A DNA stretch of 40,240 nucleotides from a virus. The DNA lies in IMG/VR virus record IMGVR_UViG_3300007734_000683, positions 1 to 40,240 of that record; one strand, given 5' to 3'. The notes under the pieces were generated by a model, which had not been told where the DNA came from, ran no database searches, and saw only the letters and a list, made by a program, of their open reading frames with translations. This document shows positions 19,487 through 30,899 of the stretch, piece after piece. Both the position numbers and the translations under genes were made by a program. Positions within the stretch are counted from its first letter, which is position 1, and the number at the start of each line of letters is the position of its first letter.

Positions 19487-19667
19487 ATGCTATAAAATAA
19501 GCTATATATAATAAGGGTTATTTAGAATTTTTAGGATATATCAATTTTAAAGCCATGCTATTTTAGAAATGATATAACATAGCTCTTATATATTTATACC
19601 CCTTTAAAATGCAATTTTGAGCCTTGTTTTTATATTTTTTCGCCGAATTACGCTTGGGACGGGGTTT

Positions 19668-19987
19668 TTTAGCCATTTTTTTACTATACTATACCTGCTA
19701 TACCTAGCCAAAGGTATAGTAAAAAGCATAGTAATTTTTTTTAACCTTTATTTTACCAGTATCAAAAAACGCATTCCTATACCTACTATACCTACTATAT
19801 ATAATATATATATATATATATAATACATAGCACACACACCCACACACCCACACGCACGCACGGAAGTGTTTAGCCATTTTTCAAAAAGGTATAGTAATTT
19901 TTTTTAAGCTATATACCACAAGCTAAAAATGCTACTATACCTCAAAAAAGGTATAGTAAAGAGGTATAGTAAAAATAGTTATCCACA
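19668..19987. other. Candidate replication origin with AGGTATAG iterons
   Basis: Nine exact copies of CTATACCT or its complement AGGTATAG lie at 19689, 19698, 19712, 19777, 19786, 19887, 19935, 19949 and 19962, in both orientations. Longer blocks also repeat: TTTAGCCATTTTT twice and ATAGTAATTTTTTTTAA twice. Between the two iteron groups are an AT-dinucleotide run (about 19795-19822) and a CA-rich run (about 19829-19860), good candidates for easily melted DNA. A perfect DnaA box ends the region. Iterons, melted region and DnaA box between divergent operons are the classic elements of an origin. The initiator protein is not identified; the HTH protein or the PrimPol-helicase are candidates. Confidence 0.65.
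19979..19987 (+). promoter_or_regulatory. Perfect DnaA box
   Basis: TTATCCACA, the consensus high-affinity DnaA site, ten bases after the last iteron copy. It suggests use of the host initiator for origin melting or helicase loading. Another perfect match on the other strand (13788-13796) has no origin context. Confidence 0.65.
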
Positions 19988-19995
19988 GTTTATAT

Positions 19996-20384: not shown

Positions 20385-20717
20385 ATGGCAAATATTTGCG
20401 ACACAGAGTTAAAAATGTATAGAGAGAACAAAGAGTTTACAAGCGAAGAAGTGAAAGAAATCGAGAAATTTATCTACGAGTTTATAACTTATGAAGGTGG
20501 AGTTTACGACAATAGCGGAGCAGGAGAGGAATTCTTAAGTTTTCAAATGGAAACAAAATGGACATTACCAAAAGCGGAGATATTGCAAGATATGGCAAAA
20601 AAGTTTAATAGCGAGATTAGGGCTATCGGTCGGGAAAACGAATATGGCTATCTGGGCTTCATTAAAGTAAACGCAGAGGGAGAGTTGATTACTGATGAAA
20701 GTATAGACACAGCATAG
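20385..20717 (+). CDS. YubB/Api92-like small protein
   Basis: A 110-residue protein starting MANICDTELKMYRE and containing FLSFQMETKWTLPKAEIL followed by EIRAIGRENEYGYLGFI. A MAN-x-C start with a later [FW]xxETKW-x-P segment and an E-x-G-x-x-G strand is the pattern of the YubB/Api92 ferredoxin-like family found on plasmids and phages. Its biochemical role is not established. Family call is by pattern and moderately confident. Confidence 0.55.
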   Translation: MANICDTELKMYRENKEFTSEEVKEIEKFIYEFITYEGGVYDNSGAGEEFLSFQMETKWTLPKAEILQDMAKKFNSEIRAIGRENEYGYLGFIKVNAEGELITDESIDTA

Positions 20718-21598: not shown

Positions 21599-21910
21599 AT
21601 GCTACTATACGCAACCACAACGTCCGAGAGGGCAAGCAAAGGGCAAGGAGGGAACGAATTTATTAAAACAGACATAACCTTTAACGAAAAACTTATAGCT
21701 CGCTTAGAATTAAAGAAAAATAATGCAGGAGAGTTTATACTCGGGTTGATAGAATTTAATGAAAATGAATTCGGAGTTAAAGCAAGTACAATATGGAGAG
21801 AAAAAGGCAAAAGTCAAAAAGGCGAAATTGATTATACATGTCCAAAATGTAAAAATGGACAATCAAAACCGAATAGAGTTTGGTGTGATAACTGTATAAA
21901 TAATCACTAA
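21599..21910 (+). CDS. SERASKGQGG-type protein with C-terminal zinc ribbon
   Basis: A 103-residue protein with the N-terminal signature TTTSERASKGQGGNEF, seen in a recurrent family of small phage proteins, followed by beta strands (TDITFNEKLIARLEL). The C-terminus has two Cys pairs, CPKC and CDNC, 17 residues apart: a zinc ribbon. Probably a nucleic-acid or protein adaptor; the precise role is unknown. A clear terminator follows 20 bases downstream. Confidence 0.6.
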   Translation: MLLYATTTSERASKGQGGNEFIKTDITFNEKLIARLELKKNNAGEFILGLIEFNENEFGVKASTIWREKGKSQKGEIDYTCPKCKNGQSKPNRVWCDNCINNH

Positions 21911-21928: not shown

Positions 21929-21963
21929 GCCGTACACGAAACTAGCGCGTGGACGGTTTTTTT
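21929..21963 (+). terminator. Intrinsic terminator
   Basis: CCGTACACG (21930-21938) pairs with CGTGGACGG (21948-21956) with one A-G mismatch and a nine-base loop. Seven T residues follow (21957-21963). It closes the first early block (20246-21910). The genes after it would need readthrough or their own promoter. Confidence 0.8.
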
Positions 21964-22035
21964 GTTTGCAAAATTATGCCCCCCTCAATGGTCGGGAGGT
22001 AGGCATAACATTATAAACAACAAAACAAAACAAAT

Positions 22036-22111: not shown

Positions 22112-22306
22112 ATGGAAAAATTATACAACGCATTAGAGGTAGCACAAATTTTAAAACTTAATAAAGATACGATCTTGCGATTTATTCGCGAGGGTAAAAT
22201 TAAAGCAGTAAAAGTGGGGCGAGAATACCGCATCAGAGAGGCAATTTTGAAAGATTTTTTGGGATATCCACAGGATGATTTGCAGGAGGAAACAGAAGTA
22301 GTATAA
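22112..22306 (+). CDS. Excisionase/MerR-like HTH DNA-binding protein
   Basis: A 64-residue protein matching the HTH_17 / excisionase-like fold: LYNALEVAQILKLNKDTILR forms the helix-turn-helix, then FIREGKIKAVKVGREYRI is the wing with the conserved G-K-I-x-x-x-x-V-G-R-x-x-R-I pattern. No integrase exists here, so it is more likely a transcription or replication-origin regulator than a true excisionase. It precedes the regulated-looking leader of the primase gene. Confidence 0.8.
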   Translation: MEKLYNALEVAQILKLNKDTILRFIREGKIKAVKVGREYRIREAILKDFLGYPQDDLQEETEVV

Positions 22307-22314
22307 TTTGGTAA

Positions 22315-22413
22315 TGCACAAGAGATTATCACAAAAAATTTATTCGTATTTAGCAAGCAGTATATGTAAGAACTTCCTTAGGGATAATTCTTGTGCAACA
22401 TATACTGCTTTTT
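22315..22413 (+). promoter_or_regulatory. Terminator/antiterminator or pseudoknot leader of the primase gene
   Basis: Four segments occur in the order A-B-A'-B'. A (22315-22330, TGCACAAGAGATTATC) pairs with A' (22383-22397, GATAATTCTTGTGCA) over 15 pairs with one bulged G. B (22356-22367, AGCAGTATATGT) pairs perfectly with B' (22398-22409, ACATATACTGCT), which is followed by TTTT. B-B' is terminator-like; A-A' encloses B and blocks it. The two stems are either mutually exclusive (attenuation) or form an H-type pseudoknot. The primase ATG lies 16 bases after the T run. Confidence 0.65.
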
Positions 22414-22428
22414 GTATGGGAATAAACT

Positions 22429-24450
22429 ATGGAAAATAAAACAATGACAATAGAACAGCAGGCATTTGCTTACCATGTCAATGGTTATAATTTATTACCT
22501 ATTGGTAAAGATAAAAAACCTATAATAAATAGCTGGAAGAAATGGCAAACAGAACAACAGACAGATGAGCAAATTATAGCTTGGTTTAAAGATGGGGCAA
22601 ATATAGGAATTATAACAGGGGAGATCTCCAGGATAACTGTTATTGATATTGATACAAAAAATGGACAAGAAAATGTAGACAAGATGTTAGAGGTATTTCC
22701 TAAAACTTATACTGTCAGGACACCCTCAAAGGGTTATCATCTCTACTATCAGTATGCCCCCGGCTTTACAGTCAGTGCAAATGCTTACCCAGAATTTCCT
22801 AGTGTTGACATAAGGGGTGATCAAGGGTATGTCGTAGCGCCCCCATCTGTTCTCCCCACTGGTACCTATGAGGTAATAAATAATATGTCTCCAGTACCAT
22901 TCCCGGTACATTTATTCCCTAAAACAAAACCACGCAAGTCTATAACTGAAATGACTACTGCAAGCAAGGGCAATAGGGATGACAGCCTTACCTCTTTCGC
23001 TGGTAAATTATTACAATCAGAAAATGATGAAGGTAAATGGTATACCGAAGTACTGCCAGCTGTCGAAAGAGCAAATTTGACCTATAACCCTCCATTACCT
23101 AAAGAGGATGTAATGAAAGTATTTAATTCAATAGCGAAGAAAGAAAAACAGAGAAGGGAAGGATTGATTTTATCCCCTATCCAAATGGATGATGGGGAAA
23201 TTATATCTAATGTAAAAATACCACTAAGGAAAAATTCAGCTAATGTCCCATATAAAGATATGGCTAATGCTTTAATTGTACTGGAAAATCATCCCTATTA
23301 TAAAGGTACAATAAAATACAATGTATTCAGGCAAGAAATAGAATATAACGGTAAACCCCTAGAGGATGCTGACATTATAAAGATACAATACTTCATGCAG
23401 ACAGAAGTTGGGCTACAAGGAATAATGCAAGGGAATGTTTATTCCGCTATAGTACACTACGCACAGAAGAATAAGTATGATGAGGCAGTAGACTGGCTAA
23501 CTGGGTTAGTATGGGACGGTACTCCTAGAGTAGCTACATGGCTTTCAAAAGCCTTAGCACTACCAGAATCAACATACTTAAGCGGTATAGGGTCTCAATG
23601 GTTGCGTGGCATGGTGAGCCGTATAATGCGTCCTGGGGCACAATTTGACTATGTCTTAATGCTTGTCGGACCACAGAACCTCGGTAAGACATCTTTCTTT
23701 AGAATAATTGGTGGACAGTTTTATAAGAGCTACACTGGGGAAGTAGATAATAAGGACTTTTACTTAGCAGTTAGAGGGGCTATGCTTATGGATCTTGATG
23801 AGGGGGCAACACTTTATAACAGTCAGGCAATTAAGATTAAAAGTATAATCACTGAAGTATGTGATGAATACCGCGCACCCTATGACCGGATAATGAAGAA
23901 ATATCCTCGCAGGTTTGTATTTTCTATTTCCACAAATGATATGGAGCCGTTTAAAGATGTGACAGGTAACAGACGTTATTGGCCTATTGATATTAAAGAC
24001 CCTGTAGAGTTTAAATGGTTGGAAGAAAACAGAGATCAACTATTTGCTGAGACATATTATAACTATAAAAATAAGATAGACATTGCAGAAGTACCAATGG
24101 ATGAGGCAACAGAAATACAAGAAGCACACCTCCATGATGATTCTTGGACTGAATTAGTGGTTGATGAAGTAAGGAAATCAGCAGACTACTGCGAGGGTGA
24201 TCCTAACTATTCTACAACTATTATGGAAGTATTTAGTAATGTATTTAAAGATGAAAGTCTAATAAGATTAGATAAAAGACATGAGATGAGAATAGGTACT
24301 ATCTTTAGAAAACAATTAGGCCTTGAAAAAAAGCAAACAATGGTAGATGGTGAAAGAAAAAATCGTTATTATATTACAGAAAAGAAGTTAAAAGAACTAC
24401 AAGAGAAAAATATAAAACAAGTAAAAAGTAAATTAGATGAAGAATTCTAA
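22429..24450 (+). CDS. Primase-polymerase / VapE-like helicase replication protein
   Basis: A 673-residue two-domain replication protein. Residues about 1-150 are a bifunctional primase-polymerase (PrimPol) domain: the aspartates of VIDIDTKNG (about 72-79), then TPSKGYHLYY and a loop VDIRGDQGYVVAPPS. Residues about 350-600 are a virulence-associated E (VapE)-type ATPase: VDWLTGLVWDGTPRV, Walker A GPQNLGKTS (about 414-422), Walker B AMLMDLDEG (about 451-459), and SISTNDMEPFKDVTGNRRYW (about 502-521) as sensor/arginine-finger region. It should prime and unwind phage DNA. No separate DNA polymerase is encoded, so synthesis probably passes to the host replisome or relies on the PrimPol itself. 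Confidence 0.85.
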   Translation: MENKTMTIEQQAFAYHVNGYNLLPIGKDKKPIINSWKKWQTEQQTDEQIIAWFKDGANIGIITGEISRITVIDIDTKNGQENVDKMLEVFPKTYTVRTPSKGYHLYYQYAPGFTVSANAYPEFPSVDIRGDQGYVVAPPSVLPTGTYEVINNMSPVPFPVHLFPKTKPRKSITEMTTASKGNRDDSLTSFAGKLLQSENDEGKWYTEVLPAVERANLTYNPPLPKEDVMKVFNSIAKKEKQRREGLILSPIQMDDGEIISNVKIPLRKNSANVPYKDMANALIVLENHPYYKGTIKYNVFRQEIEYNGKPLEDADIIKIQYFMQTEVGLQGIMQGNVYSAIVHYAQKNKYDEAVDWLTGLVWDGTPRVATWLSKALALPESTYLSGIGSQWLRGMVSRIMRPGAQFDYVLMLVGPQNLGKTSFFRIIGGQFYKSYTGEVDNKDFYLAVRGAMLMDLDEGATLYNSQAIKIKSIITEVCDEYRAPYDRIMKKYPRRFVFSISTNDMEPFKDVTGNRRYWPIDIKDPVEFKWLEENRDQLFAETYYNYKNKIDIAEVPMDEATEIQEAHLHDDSWTELVVDEVRKSADYCEGDPNYSTTIMEVFSNVFKDESLIRLDKRHEMRIGTIFRKQLGLEKKQTMVDGERKNRYYITEKKLKELQEKNIKQVKSKLDEEF

Positions 24451-26009: not shown

Positions 26010-26099
26010 ATGAAATGTAAAAAATGTAAGCATGAATGGGTTCCAAGGATTAAAAATCCTAAGTGTTGTCCAAAGTGTAAGAATTATATCAAGTCATAA
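26010..26099 (+). CDS. 29-residue zinc-ribbon microprotein
   Basis: The ORF reads MKCKKCKHEWVPR then IKNPKCCPKCKNYIKS. Two CxxC pairs with a HEWxPR loop between them form a textbook zinc ribbon, frequently seen in very small phage, archaeal and CPR proteins. It is placed directly at the start point of a perfect promoter. Probably a nucleic-acid or RNA-polymerase-binding factor, but this is inference. Confidence 0.65.
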   Translation: MKCKKCKHEWVPRIKNPKCCPKCKNYIKS

Positions 26100-26550: not shown

Positions 26551-27018
26551 ATGAAAAAGATTAAACTAACTCAAGGTCAATATTGTTTATTAGATGATAT
26601 TGACTTTGAATGGTTTAATCAATGGAAATGGTATGCAAAAAAGCAAGGTATTAAATGGAAAGTTGCTAGAAATATAACTAATAAAATTGGTAAGCAAGAT
26701 ACAGTTTTATTACATAGAATTTTGATGAATTGTCCTTCAGGGAAAGAAGTAGATCATATTGATGGAAATCCATTAAATAATCAGAGAAAAAATCTAAGAC
26801 TTTGTACCAAAAAAGAAAATAGACAGAATAAAGGAATGTCTAAAAATAATAAATCAGGGTATAAAGGAGTTACATTACGTAGAAATGTATATGAAGTATA
26901 TATTAGAAAGAATAATAAACATTTATATATAGGTTCTTCAAAAGATAAACAAGAAGCATCGCGAATGTATAACAAAGTAGCAAAAGAAGTATTTGGTGAA
27001 TTTGCTAAGCTTGATTAA
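26551..27018 (+). CDS. HNH homing endonuclease with AP2 domain
   Basis: A 155-residue protein. Residues about 50-75 hold the HNH core (LHRILMNCPSGKEVDHIDGN, then PLNNQRKNLRLCT). Residues about 95-140 are an AP2-type DNA-binding domain (KSGYKGVTLRRNVYEVYIR, then KHLYIGSSKDKQEASRMYN). HNH-AP2 proteins are free-standing homing endonucleases. It sits three bases after the ssDNA-binding gene and is followed directly by a structured RNA-like element, suggesting insertion into the replication operon. Confidence 0.85.
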   Translation: MKKIKLTQGQYCLLDDIDFEWFNQWKWYAKKQGIKWKVARNITNKIGKQDTVLLHRILMNCPSGKEVDHIDGNPLNNQRKNLRLCTKKENRQNKGMSKNNKSGYKGVTLRRNVYEVYIRKNNKHLYIGSSKDKQEASRMYNKVAKEVFGEFAKLD

Positions 27019-27026
27019 CAATTAAC

Positions 27027-27106
27027 ATACAAGGGATTCTCCCTTGTATCCTGGAGGTTGACCCCTGAGTCTGCGGACAGTCAGGTAAGCGCATCTCCAG
27101 GATGTA
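27027..27106 (+). ncRNA. Structured RNA element with UNCG tetraloop
   Basis: Hairpin 1: ATACAAGGGA (27027-27036), loop TTC, TCCCTTGTAT (27040-27049). Stem 2: ATCCTGGAG (27048-27056) with CTCCAGGAT (27095-27103), both perfect apart from two bases shared with hairpin 1. Inside stem 2 a third stem, CCTGA+GTC (27064-27071) with GAC+TCAGG (27076-27085), has a two-base bulge and loop TGCG, a UNCG-type stable tetraloop closed by C-G. Large unpaired strands (27057-27063 and 27086-27094) remain, as in aptamers and ribozymes. The stretch is much richer in G and C than its flanks. I do not recognise a known class. Confidence 0.55.
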
Positions 27107-27123
27107 GGGGGGAATAATAAATT

Positions 27124-27270
27124 ATGAAAGAACTTATAAATCCAACAGCAGTAGTGTGTACTTGTTTCATGCTAATTATCATGTTGTTTAGAGGAATACA
27201 AACATTCCCAACTAATGCAATAATTTTATTAATAATATTTGTATTTGCTTGGATATGGAGTGAAAATTAA
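27124..27270 (+). CDS. Small two-span membrane protein
   Basis: A 48-residue ORF with two hydrophobic stretches (AVVCTCFMLIIMLF and AIILLIIFVFAWIW), starting 18 bases after the structured element and ending one base before the nuclease gene (TAATATG). Early small membrane proteins can act in superinfection exclusion or membrane-linked replication; nothing decides here. Confidence 0.5.
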   Translation: MKELINPTAVVCTCFMLIIMLFRGIQTFPTNAIILLIIFVFAWIWSEN

Positions 27271-29588: not shown

Positions 29589-29942
29589 ATGATAGAAATA
29601 AAATTTAGAGCGTGGGACAAATTAAATAAAGAAATGACCTTATTTGGATTGTTCGAGAGACCTACTGCTACTTGGGGGAAACATTGTGAAATAATGCAAT
29701 TCACTGGTCTCCTAGACAAAAACGGCAAAGAGATATATGAGGGGGATATAGTTGAATGGAAATATTTAAAAACTTGGCACAAAAACGAAGTTAGGTGGGT
29801 TGGGGGTGGATTTGTGGTAACCACATCTGGTTTTAAAGATGACTTAAATGAACCTCAAGATTTATCGCTTGTGTCAATATTAAGTTGTGAAATCATCGGC
29901 AACATTTACGAGAACCCAGATTTATTAACCCAGAAACCATAA
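29589..29942 (+). CDS. YopX family protein
   Basis: A 117-residue protein with the YopX signatures: start MIEIKFRAWDKLNKEM, then IMQFTGLLDKNGKEIYEGDI followed by beta strands, and end EIIGNIYENPDLL. YopX proteins occur widely on phages and form beta-rich oligomers of unknown function. It is preceded by repeat R1 and its stop lies inside repeat R2; a second R1-R2 pair without the gene lies at 30809-30899. Confidence 0.85.
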   Translation: MIEIKFRAWDKLNKEMTLFGLFERPTATWGKHCEIMQFTGLLDKNGKEIYEGDIVEWKYLKTWHKNEVRWVGGGFVVTTSGFKDDLNEPQDLSLVSILSCEIIGNIYENPDLLTQKP

Positions 29943-29976
29943 AAGGTTTCCTAACAAACAAAAGATAGATGAAAAA
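29931..29976 (+). repeat. Repeat R2, copy 1
   Basis: 46 bases covering the last codons of the yopX gene, the intergenic leader and the first codons of the methyltransferase-like gene. They recur at 30854-30899 with one mismatch. In copy 2 the first part is no longer coding. Confidence 0.85.
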
Positions 29977-30853: not shown

Positions 30854-30899
30854 CCAGAAACTATAAAAGGTTTCCTAACAAACAAAAGATAGATGAAAA
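30854..30899 (+). repeat. Repeat R2, copy 2
   Basis: Second copy of R2 (45 of 46 bases identical). The part that encodes the YopX C-terminus in copy 1 is non-coding here. The end of the repeat supplies the leader and first codons of the 30893 gene. Confidence 0.85.

Follow-up and report, generated by a model that had tools for sequence, protein, structure and literature searches.

An RNA element immediately upstream of the primase-helicase gene of a tailed phage probably acts as a genuine control switch for primase production, because its fold is kept in four relatives that spell it with different letters. The whole case is computational and is built on five sequences from metagenomic contigs. 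The window, by which we mean the entire stretch of 40,240 nucleotides analysed, encodes a large terminase and a major head protein, and no DNA similarity to named phages was found in the region tested. Both stems of the element look real and selected as RNA. We give about an even chance to the more specific reading that the element is a cis-acting switch in the leader of the phage replication operon and acts through a coupled leader open reading frame (ORF). As judged from sequence, the element probably also encodes a tiny leader protein that starts at the first letters of the message.

Table. Features of the leader element and its surroundings in the window, and the corresponding segments in four related contigs.
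Feature	Position	Strand	Sequence or remark
DnaA-box-like site	22264-22272	+	ATATCCACA, 8/9 to TTATCCACA; 50 bp before leader ATG
Sigma70-type promoter	22279-22307	+	TTTGCA-17-TATAAT; consensus match, not mapped start
Leader ORF, putatively leaderless	22314-22439	+	41 codons; TATAAT-N6-ATG; relatives have equivalents
Segment A	22315-22330	+	TGCACAAGA-g-ATTATC; 5'-terminal, overlaps leader start codon
Extended B stem, lower part, 5' side	22339-22345	+	TTTATTC
Segment B	22356-22367	+	AGCAGTATATGT
Segment A'	22383-22397	+	GATAATTCTTGTGCA; inside B hairpin loop
Segment B'	22398-22409	+	ACATATACTGCT
T5 run after B'	22409-22413	+	read from sequence
Extended B stem, lower part, 3' side	22420-22426	+	GAATAAA; two bases before primase ATG
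Primase-helicase (target gene)	22429-24450	+	Prim-Pol / PriCT-1 / VapE-like, 673 aa
L003 segments A / B / A' / B'			TGCACGAGA / AACCAGTAGAGG / TCTCGTGCA / CCTCTACTGGTT
L010 segments A / B / A' / B'			GACATTAC / AGCCCAGAGATTT / GTAATGTC / AAGTCTCTGGGCT
L012 segments A / B / A' / B'			TGCTAC / GAAATAGCGCACTTAA / GTAGCA / TTAAGTGTGCTATTTT
L044 segments A / B / A' / B'			ATGCAAAGAT / GCCCCCTGT / ATCTTTGCAT / ACAGGGGGC

In the window, the A:A' helix has 15 pairs (9 + 6) with a single bulged G between them, and the B:B' helix has 12 perfect pairs closing a hairpin loop of 30 nt. The two helices are interleaved in the order A-B-A'-B'. The sequence-only reading had described these same segments and stems, and their positions hold. 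The stems exceed chance. A script that seeks the best interleaved helix pair returned -40.4 kcal/mol, against -18.1 +/- 3.1 for dinucleotide shuffles (300 per sequence), and 0/300 shuffles reached the observed value. The nested-fold MFE gives z = -4.5 for the stretch and -4.05 for the RNA from 22314. When every 110-nt stretch of the whole window is scored for interleaved helices on both strands, the element comes second, behind an unrelated structured region at 27.0-27.1 kb. The B stem had been said to end in a T run. The T5 run is there, but the B stem continues downward through its lower part and further inner pairs, so that the run lies partly inside an extended, imperfect stem.

Relatives were found through terminase and primase searches, and four related contigs (L003, L010, L012 and L044) cover the primase start, with primases that are 55%, 68-69%, 57% and 45-46% identical to that of the window, respectively. 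All four carry the A-B-A'-B' order upstream of the primase, with stem sequences that are almost wholly different. The presence of two interleaved helices in each phage rests on separate shuffle tests and not on the core alignment; in every one of the five phages, 0/300 shuffles reach the observed value. Two-sided changes occur in 12 of the 14 core pairs across both helices. The sequence-only reading was to fall if related phages showed no compensatory changes, and with this many two-sided changes that objection does not apply. All 70 cells of the core pair (6 + 8 pairs in 5 phages) and shuffled and slid controls are far lower, a percentage that is biased upward and controls that flatter the result, because the core register was picked from the pairing and the cores were joined with fixed spacers. 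The A-B linker is 30 nt in the window, 25 nt in L003 and 26 nt in L010, L012 and L044, and the A'-B' spacer is 0 nt in the window, 1 nt in L003 and L044, 7 nt in L010 and 12 nt in L012. Segment A falls within nt 1-17 in all five phages and includes start-codon bases in three of them; in L010 and L012 it begins 10-12 nt after the leader start and not on it. Outside the stems, similarity is clear only between the window and L003, which share TTATTCGTAT in the A-B linker; there this stretch pairs with bases of the primase start.

The element appears to be a trait of this clade and not of the whole primase family, because none of five named VapE-primase phages (LfeSau, Mushu, P738, BC669P2 and JB1P3) shows a significant interleaved pair ahead of the annotated gene. 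It is mostly absent from the distant relatives L013-L045. A pattern search with the exact B stem found no match, and one with the A-B linker matched the L003 contig alone. Apparent matches in L036 and L038-L043 are due to iteron-like repeats: these contigs carry origin-like TGGGACAT repeats in both orientations about 160 nt before their PrimPol genes. L018 passes the shuffle test with a GC-rich hairpin of another layout. The distant primase relative L033 has ATAGACG / ACCCCCCAA / CGTCTAT / TTGGGGGGT followed by TTTT before its primase (~2850-2975), with an ORF through B-A'-B' and with A outside the leader ORF. It is not among the five phages counted here and may be an independent case of the A-B-A'-B' arrangement.

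The sequence-only reading placed the element between an HTH gene and the primase gene. The flanks are correct, with an HTH_17/excisionase-like gene of 64 aa ending at 22306 and the primase following, but an ORF covers the whole element and reaches 11 nt into the primase gene. This putatively leaderless ORF, which had been overlooked, crosses the element in 5/5 phages, and in each of them it ends at the primase start or overlaps it. Relative to the A of the primase ATG, its stop codon starts at +8 in the window, L010 and L012, at +5 in L003 and at -6 in L044, where the junction is TAA-TGT-ATG and the ORF stops 3 nt before the primase. The four overlapping leaders (115 nt in the window, 85 in L003, 127 in L010 and 151 in L012) are all 1 modulo 3 and differ by multiples of 3; the L044 leader is 93 nt long. 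Dinucleotide shuffles put the chance of an open frame at 0.05 for the window, 0.15 for L003, 0.06 for L010, 0.02 for L012 and 0.13 for L044, and the product for five of five open is ~1e-6 under a null that ignores stem constraints and for a frame that was noticed first. The leader peptides are not conserved, and a function of the peptide itself is unlikely as the five look unalike. A frameshift from the leader ORF into the primase was set aside on the frame relation alone: such a shift would have to be +1, and the ORFs just terminate where the primase begins.

The mark of bacterial leaderless genes is a TANNNT whose first T lies about 12 bp ahead of the start codon (PMC3160421), and TANNNT-N6-ATG stands at the leader ORF in all five phages. 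Because TATAAT-N6 precedes the ATG in the window, the transcript should begin at that codon and would be leaderless. L012 carries the identical TTTGCA-17-TATAAT, and the -35 boxes of L003 and L010 are weak. Two further ORFs on the same strand of the window have TATAAT-N6-ATG, at 20385 and 26010. The latter (26010-26099, 29 codons) has a perfect promoter, TTGACA-17-TATAAT-N6-ATG, and its product is a small zinc-ribbon-like protein with two CxxC pairs. Only 3 of 47 window genes are preceded by a Shine-Dalgarno (SD)-like site, so the host probably uses other initiation signals. In SD-poor bacteria, start-site structure tunes initiation (PMC6847099). The main sigma factor of Bacteroidetes uses TTTG / TANNTTTG and most transcripts there carry leaders (PMC6847099); if the host belongs to the Bacteroidetes, the promoter reading would need revision on both counts.

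Folds of growing 5' fragments, computed as nested structures only (no pseudoknots), gave the same order of events in the five phages. The mean pairing probability of A:A' rises to ~0.9-0.99 with A' complete, and B:B' takes over once B' is complete. When the finished leader is folded as a nested structure, A is left unpaired and the leader ATG is 64-99% accessible; a lasting block would therefore need the putative pseudoknot. Linker lengths of 25-30, 9-20 and 0-12 nt across the five phages place no obvious bar to both helices in one molecule. In L003 and L044 the extended B stem is predicted to hide the primase start more strongly than 100/100 shuffles do. The hiding is weak in the window, where 10/100 shuffles go as low, and in L010 (18/100), and it is absent in L012 (92/100 shuffles), in which B' ends 47 nt before the primase ATG.

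Because the leader ORF reaches the primase start through the element in every phage, the sequences point at translation as the main output. An ORF that passes through both stems and ends at the primase start fits either termination-reinitiation coupling or the melting of a structure that hides the start, and the opening of such structures by translation of an upstream ORF is an established mechanism (PMC6728339). In the mechanism that we propose, transcription would start at the ATG of the leader ORF, so that ribosomes would load on the bare 5' end of the transcript; the 5' end of leaderless messages is bound mostly by 70S ribosomes (PMC9031893). As A' emerges (~nt 65-84) it would pair with A and close the 5' end. 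When B' emerges (~nt 78-104), B:B' would form, either in place of A:A' or together with it as an H-type pseudoknot, and would place a long hairpin before the primase start. Primase would then come mainly from ribosomes that loaded early on the leader and translated through B and B'. In four phages they would stop 8-11 nt inside the primase gene, and in L044 3 nt before it, and would restart at its start codon, which would tie primase synthesis to ribosomes catching the nascent transcript. Where no ribosome follows, the T-run may also bring about premature termination. The paired segments with their covariation, the ORF and its end, the promoter spacing and the predicted folding order are supported by the sequences; the leaderless start, the coupling, the direction of control and any termination we infer. 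It is possible, though on balance doubtful, that the element represents a new class of phage leader RNAs. A pseudoknot at the 5' end would then gate a leaderless start codon, and the overlapping leader ORF would be translated only by ribosomes that catch the nascent transcript; these would pass from it to the primase.

The switch named in the sequence-only reading survives in its pseudoknot or alternative-structure form, given the covariation and the ordered exchange in five of five phages, but a transcription attenuator we regard as unlikely, while taking it seriously. Here B:B' with the T-run would be an intrinsic terminator, A:A' would be an antiterminator that traps B in its loop, and ribosome loading on A, or a regulator, would decide between the stems. 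T4-T5 adjoins B' in four phages and the exchange in growing fragments falls around the time that the T-run is made, but L044 has only GTTTAA after B'. The 30-nt loop is outside the limits of the terminator scan, which lists no terminator here, and part of the T-run is paired within the longer, extended form of the stem. Segments A, A', B and B' have zero overlap in the window, so the two helices lack the common strand of a terminator and antiterminator and could exclude each other only by topology or kinetics. Nor does an attenuator require the conserved ORF overlap. The layout of attenuators had also been called rarely reported for phage replication genes; the P4 replication operon, which is controlled by premature termination (as described in PMC4825925), is a precedent.

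A stand-alone small RNA gene, with a promoter, a pseudoknotted RNA of ~100 nt and a terminator, would act in trans and merely have the primase as its next gene. The dedicated promoter right at A and the T-run after B' suit it, but the ORF that is open through the RNA to the primase start and the synteny with the primase, both in 5/5 phages, argue for action in cis. Loop sequences are unconserved except between the window and L003, and BLAST of the leader against its own contig returned only itself and the inverted arms, with no second complementary site at a sensitivity that short matches would escape. We consider this rather improbable. Less credible still is a DNA element, in which the interleaved inverted repeats would serve as operators or as part of a replication origin. 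The pairing is kept and the repeat sequence is not, which misfits a protein-binding site common to the relatives; the B stem of L012 keeps G-U pairs, and the origin-like repeats of the window sit at 19.66-19.98 kb. In its favour, an HTH gene precedes the element and DnaA-box-like sites lie 50-62 bp upstream in four phages: besides the site in the window, exact TTATNCACA boxes precede the leader ATG of L003, L010 and L012 by 54, 55 and 62 bp, and L044 has no exact TTATNCACA box there. A metabolite riboswitch with an H-type pseudoknot aptamer is very improbable. The A-B-A'-B' order is the topology of SAM-II-type aptamers. SAM-II leaders resemble the element in this topology and in combining terminators with start-codon control (PMC9373788), but the five phages share no conserved aptamer core that could bind a ligand, and Rfam gave no match to the element at gathering level and only snoRNA matches below it, at chance level (E 1-3.4).

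The cis-acting reading through a coupled leader ORF has counterparts in known systems. Plasmids are known to control replication initiators by leader ORFs and pseudoknots, and among tailed phages and their satellites P4 is the best-known parallel. In the repZ and IncL/M systems the leader ORF is translationally coupled to the replication initiator and the leader RNA pseudoknot is the switch. The pseudoknot of ColIb-P9-type leaders promotes initiator translation, with an antisense RNA as the regulator. In the RNA phage MS2, ribosomes can enter the maturation-protein leader only while the strand is nascent and its 5' region still unfolded. This limit on ribosome entry resembles the one proposed here, but MS2 is an RNA phage and its leader has neither a leader ORF nor interleaved helices. 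The plasmid parallels comprise ColIb-P9 (IncI-alpha) repY-repZ, its IncB and IncL/M relatives and IncFII R1 tap-repA (among the references of PMC10724649). The phage element shares with them a putatively coupled leader ORF and a putative leader pseudoknot before a replication gene. Unlike them, its leader ORF appears leaderless, the helices lie inside the ORF, the target is a primase-helicase and no conserved antisense promoter is seen: the window has one promoter-like site on the opposite strand, and none stands at the matching place in the relatives. The P4 immunity leader (seqA, CI RNA, seqC) is likewise a phage replication operon leader under RNA pairing control. As described in PMC4825925, P4 uses a trans-acting antisense RNA, transcription termination and an untranslated leader, whereas here the pairing is internal to the leader and the leader carries an ORF. 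No P4-like trans-acting RNA complementary to two leader sites was found in the same BLAST against the contig, which misses short matches. Gifsy-1 IsrK / orf45-anrP is a prophage parallel whose leader combines a terminator and alternative structures with an ORF that is coupled to the gene behind it, but there the switch is a trans-acting sRNA, the ribosome binding site is normal and the target is an antirepressor (PMC4825925).

The RNA element before the primase of these uncultured phages is conserved in structure and variable in sequence, has no known family, and unites an interleaved double stem with an ORF that is putatively leaderless. If the cis-acting reading is true, phages of SD-poor hosts can control a replication gene through RNA folding, and if the new-class reading is true, the leader would be a built-in timer for synthesis of the replication protein. 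The element, if real, makes simple, testable predictions.

Other features of these genomes deserve mention. The non-coding stretch 19660-19990, between divergent gene blocks, holds GGTATAGTA repeats and their complement and a perfect DnaA box (TTATCCACA) at 19979, and it is a possible replication origin. L003 has similar repeats plus a DnaA box, and CACTGTCA-type repeats lie upstream of the leader in L044. After the gene at 21599-21910, the interval 21938-22026 has a terminator-like hairpin with T7 and an inverted repeat (ATTATGCCCCCCTC / GAGGTAGGCATAAC) upstream of the HTH operon. The stretch 27027-27125 (+), which has the best interleaved-helix score of the window and no credible Rfam match, is strongly structured and intergenic, directly after an HNH endonuclease gene (26551-27018); its hairpin ATACAAGGGA/TCCCTTGTAT competes with a long stem, TTCTCCCTTGTATCCTGGAG / CTCCAGGATGTAGGGGGGAA. 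A start region is repeated at 29939-29974 and 30863-30898 (+), where the 30 bases preceding the genes at 29969 and 30893 are identical (ATAAAAGGTTTCCTAACAAACAAAAGATAG).
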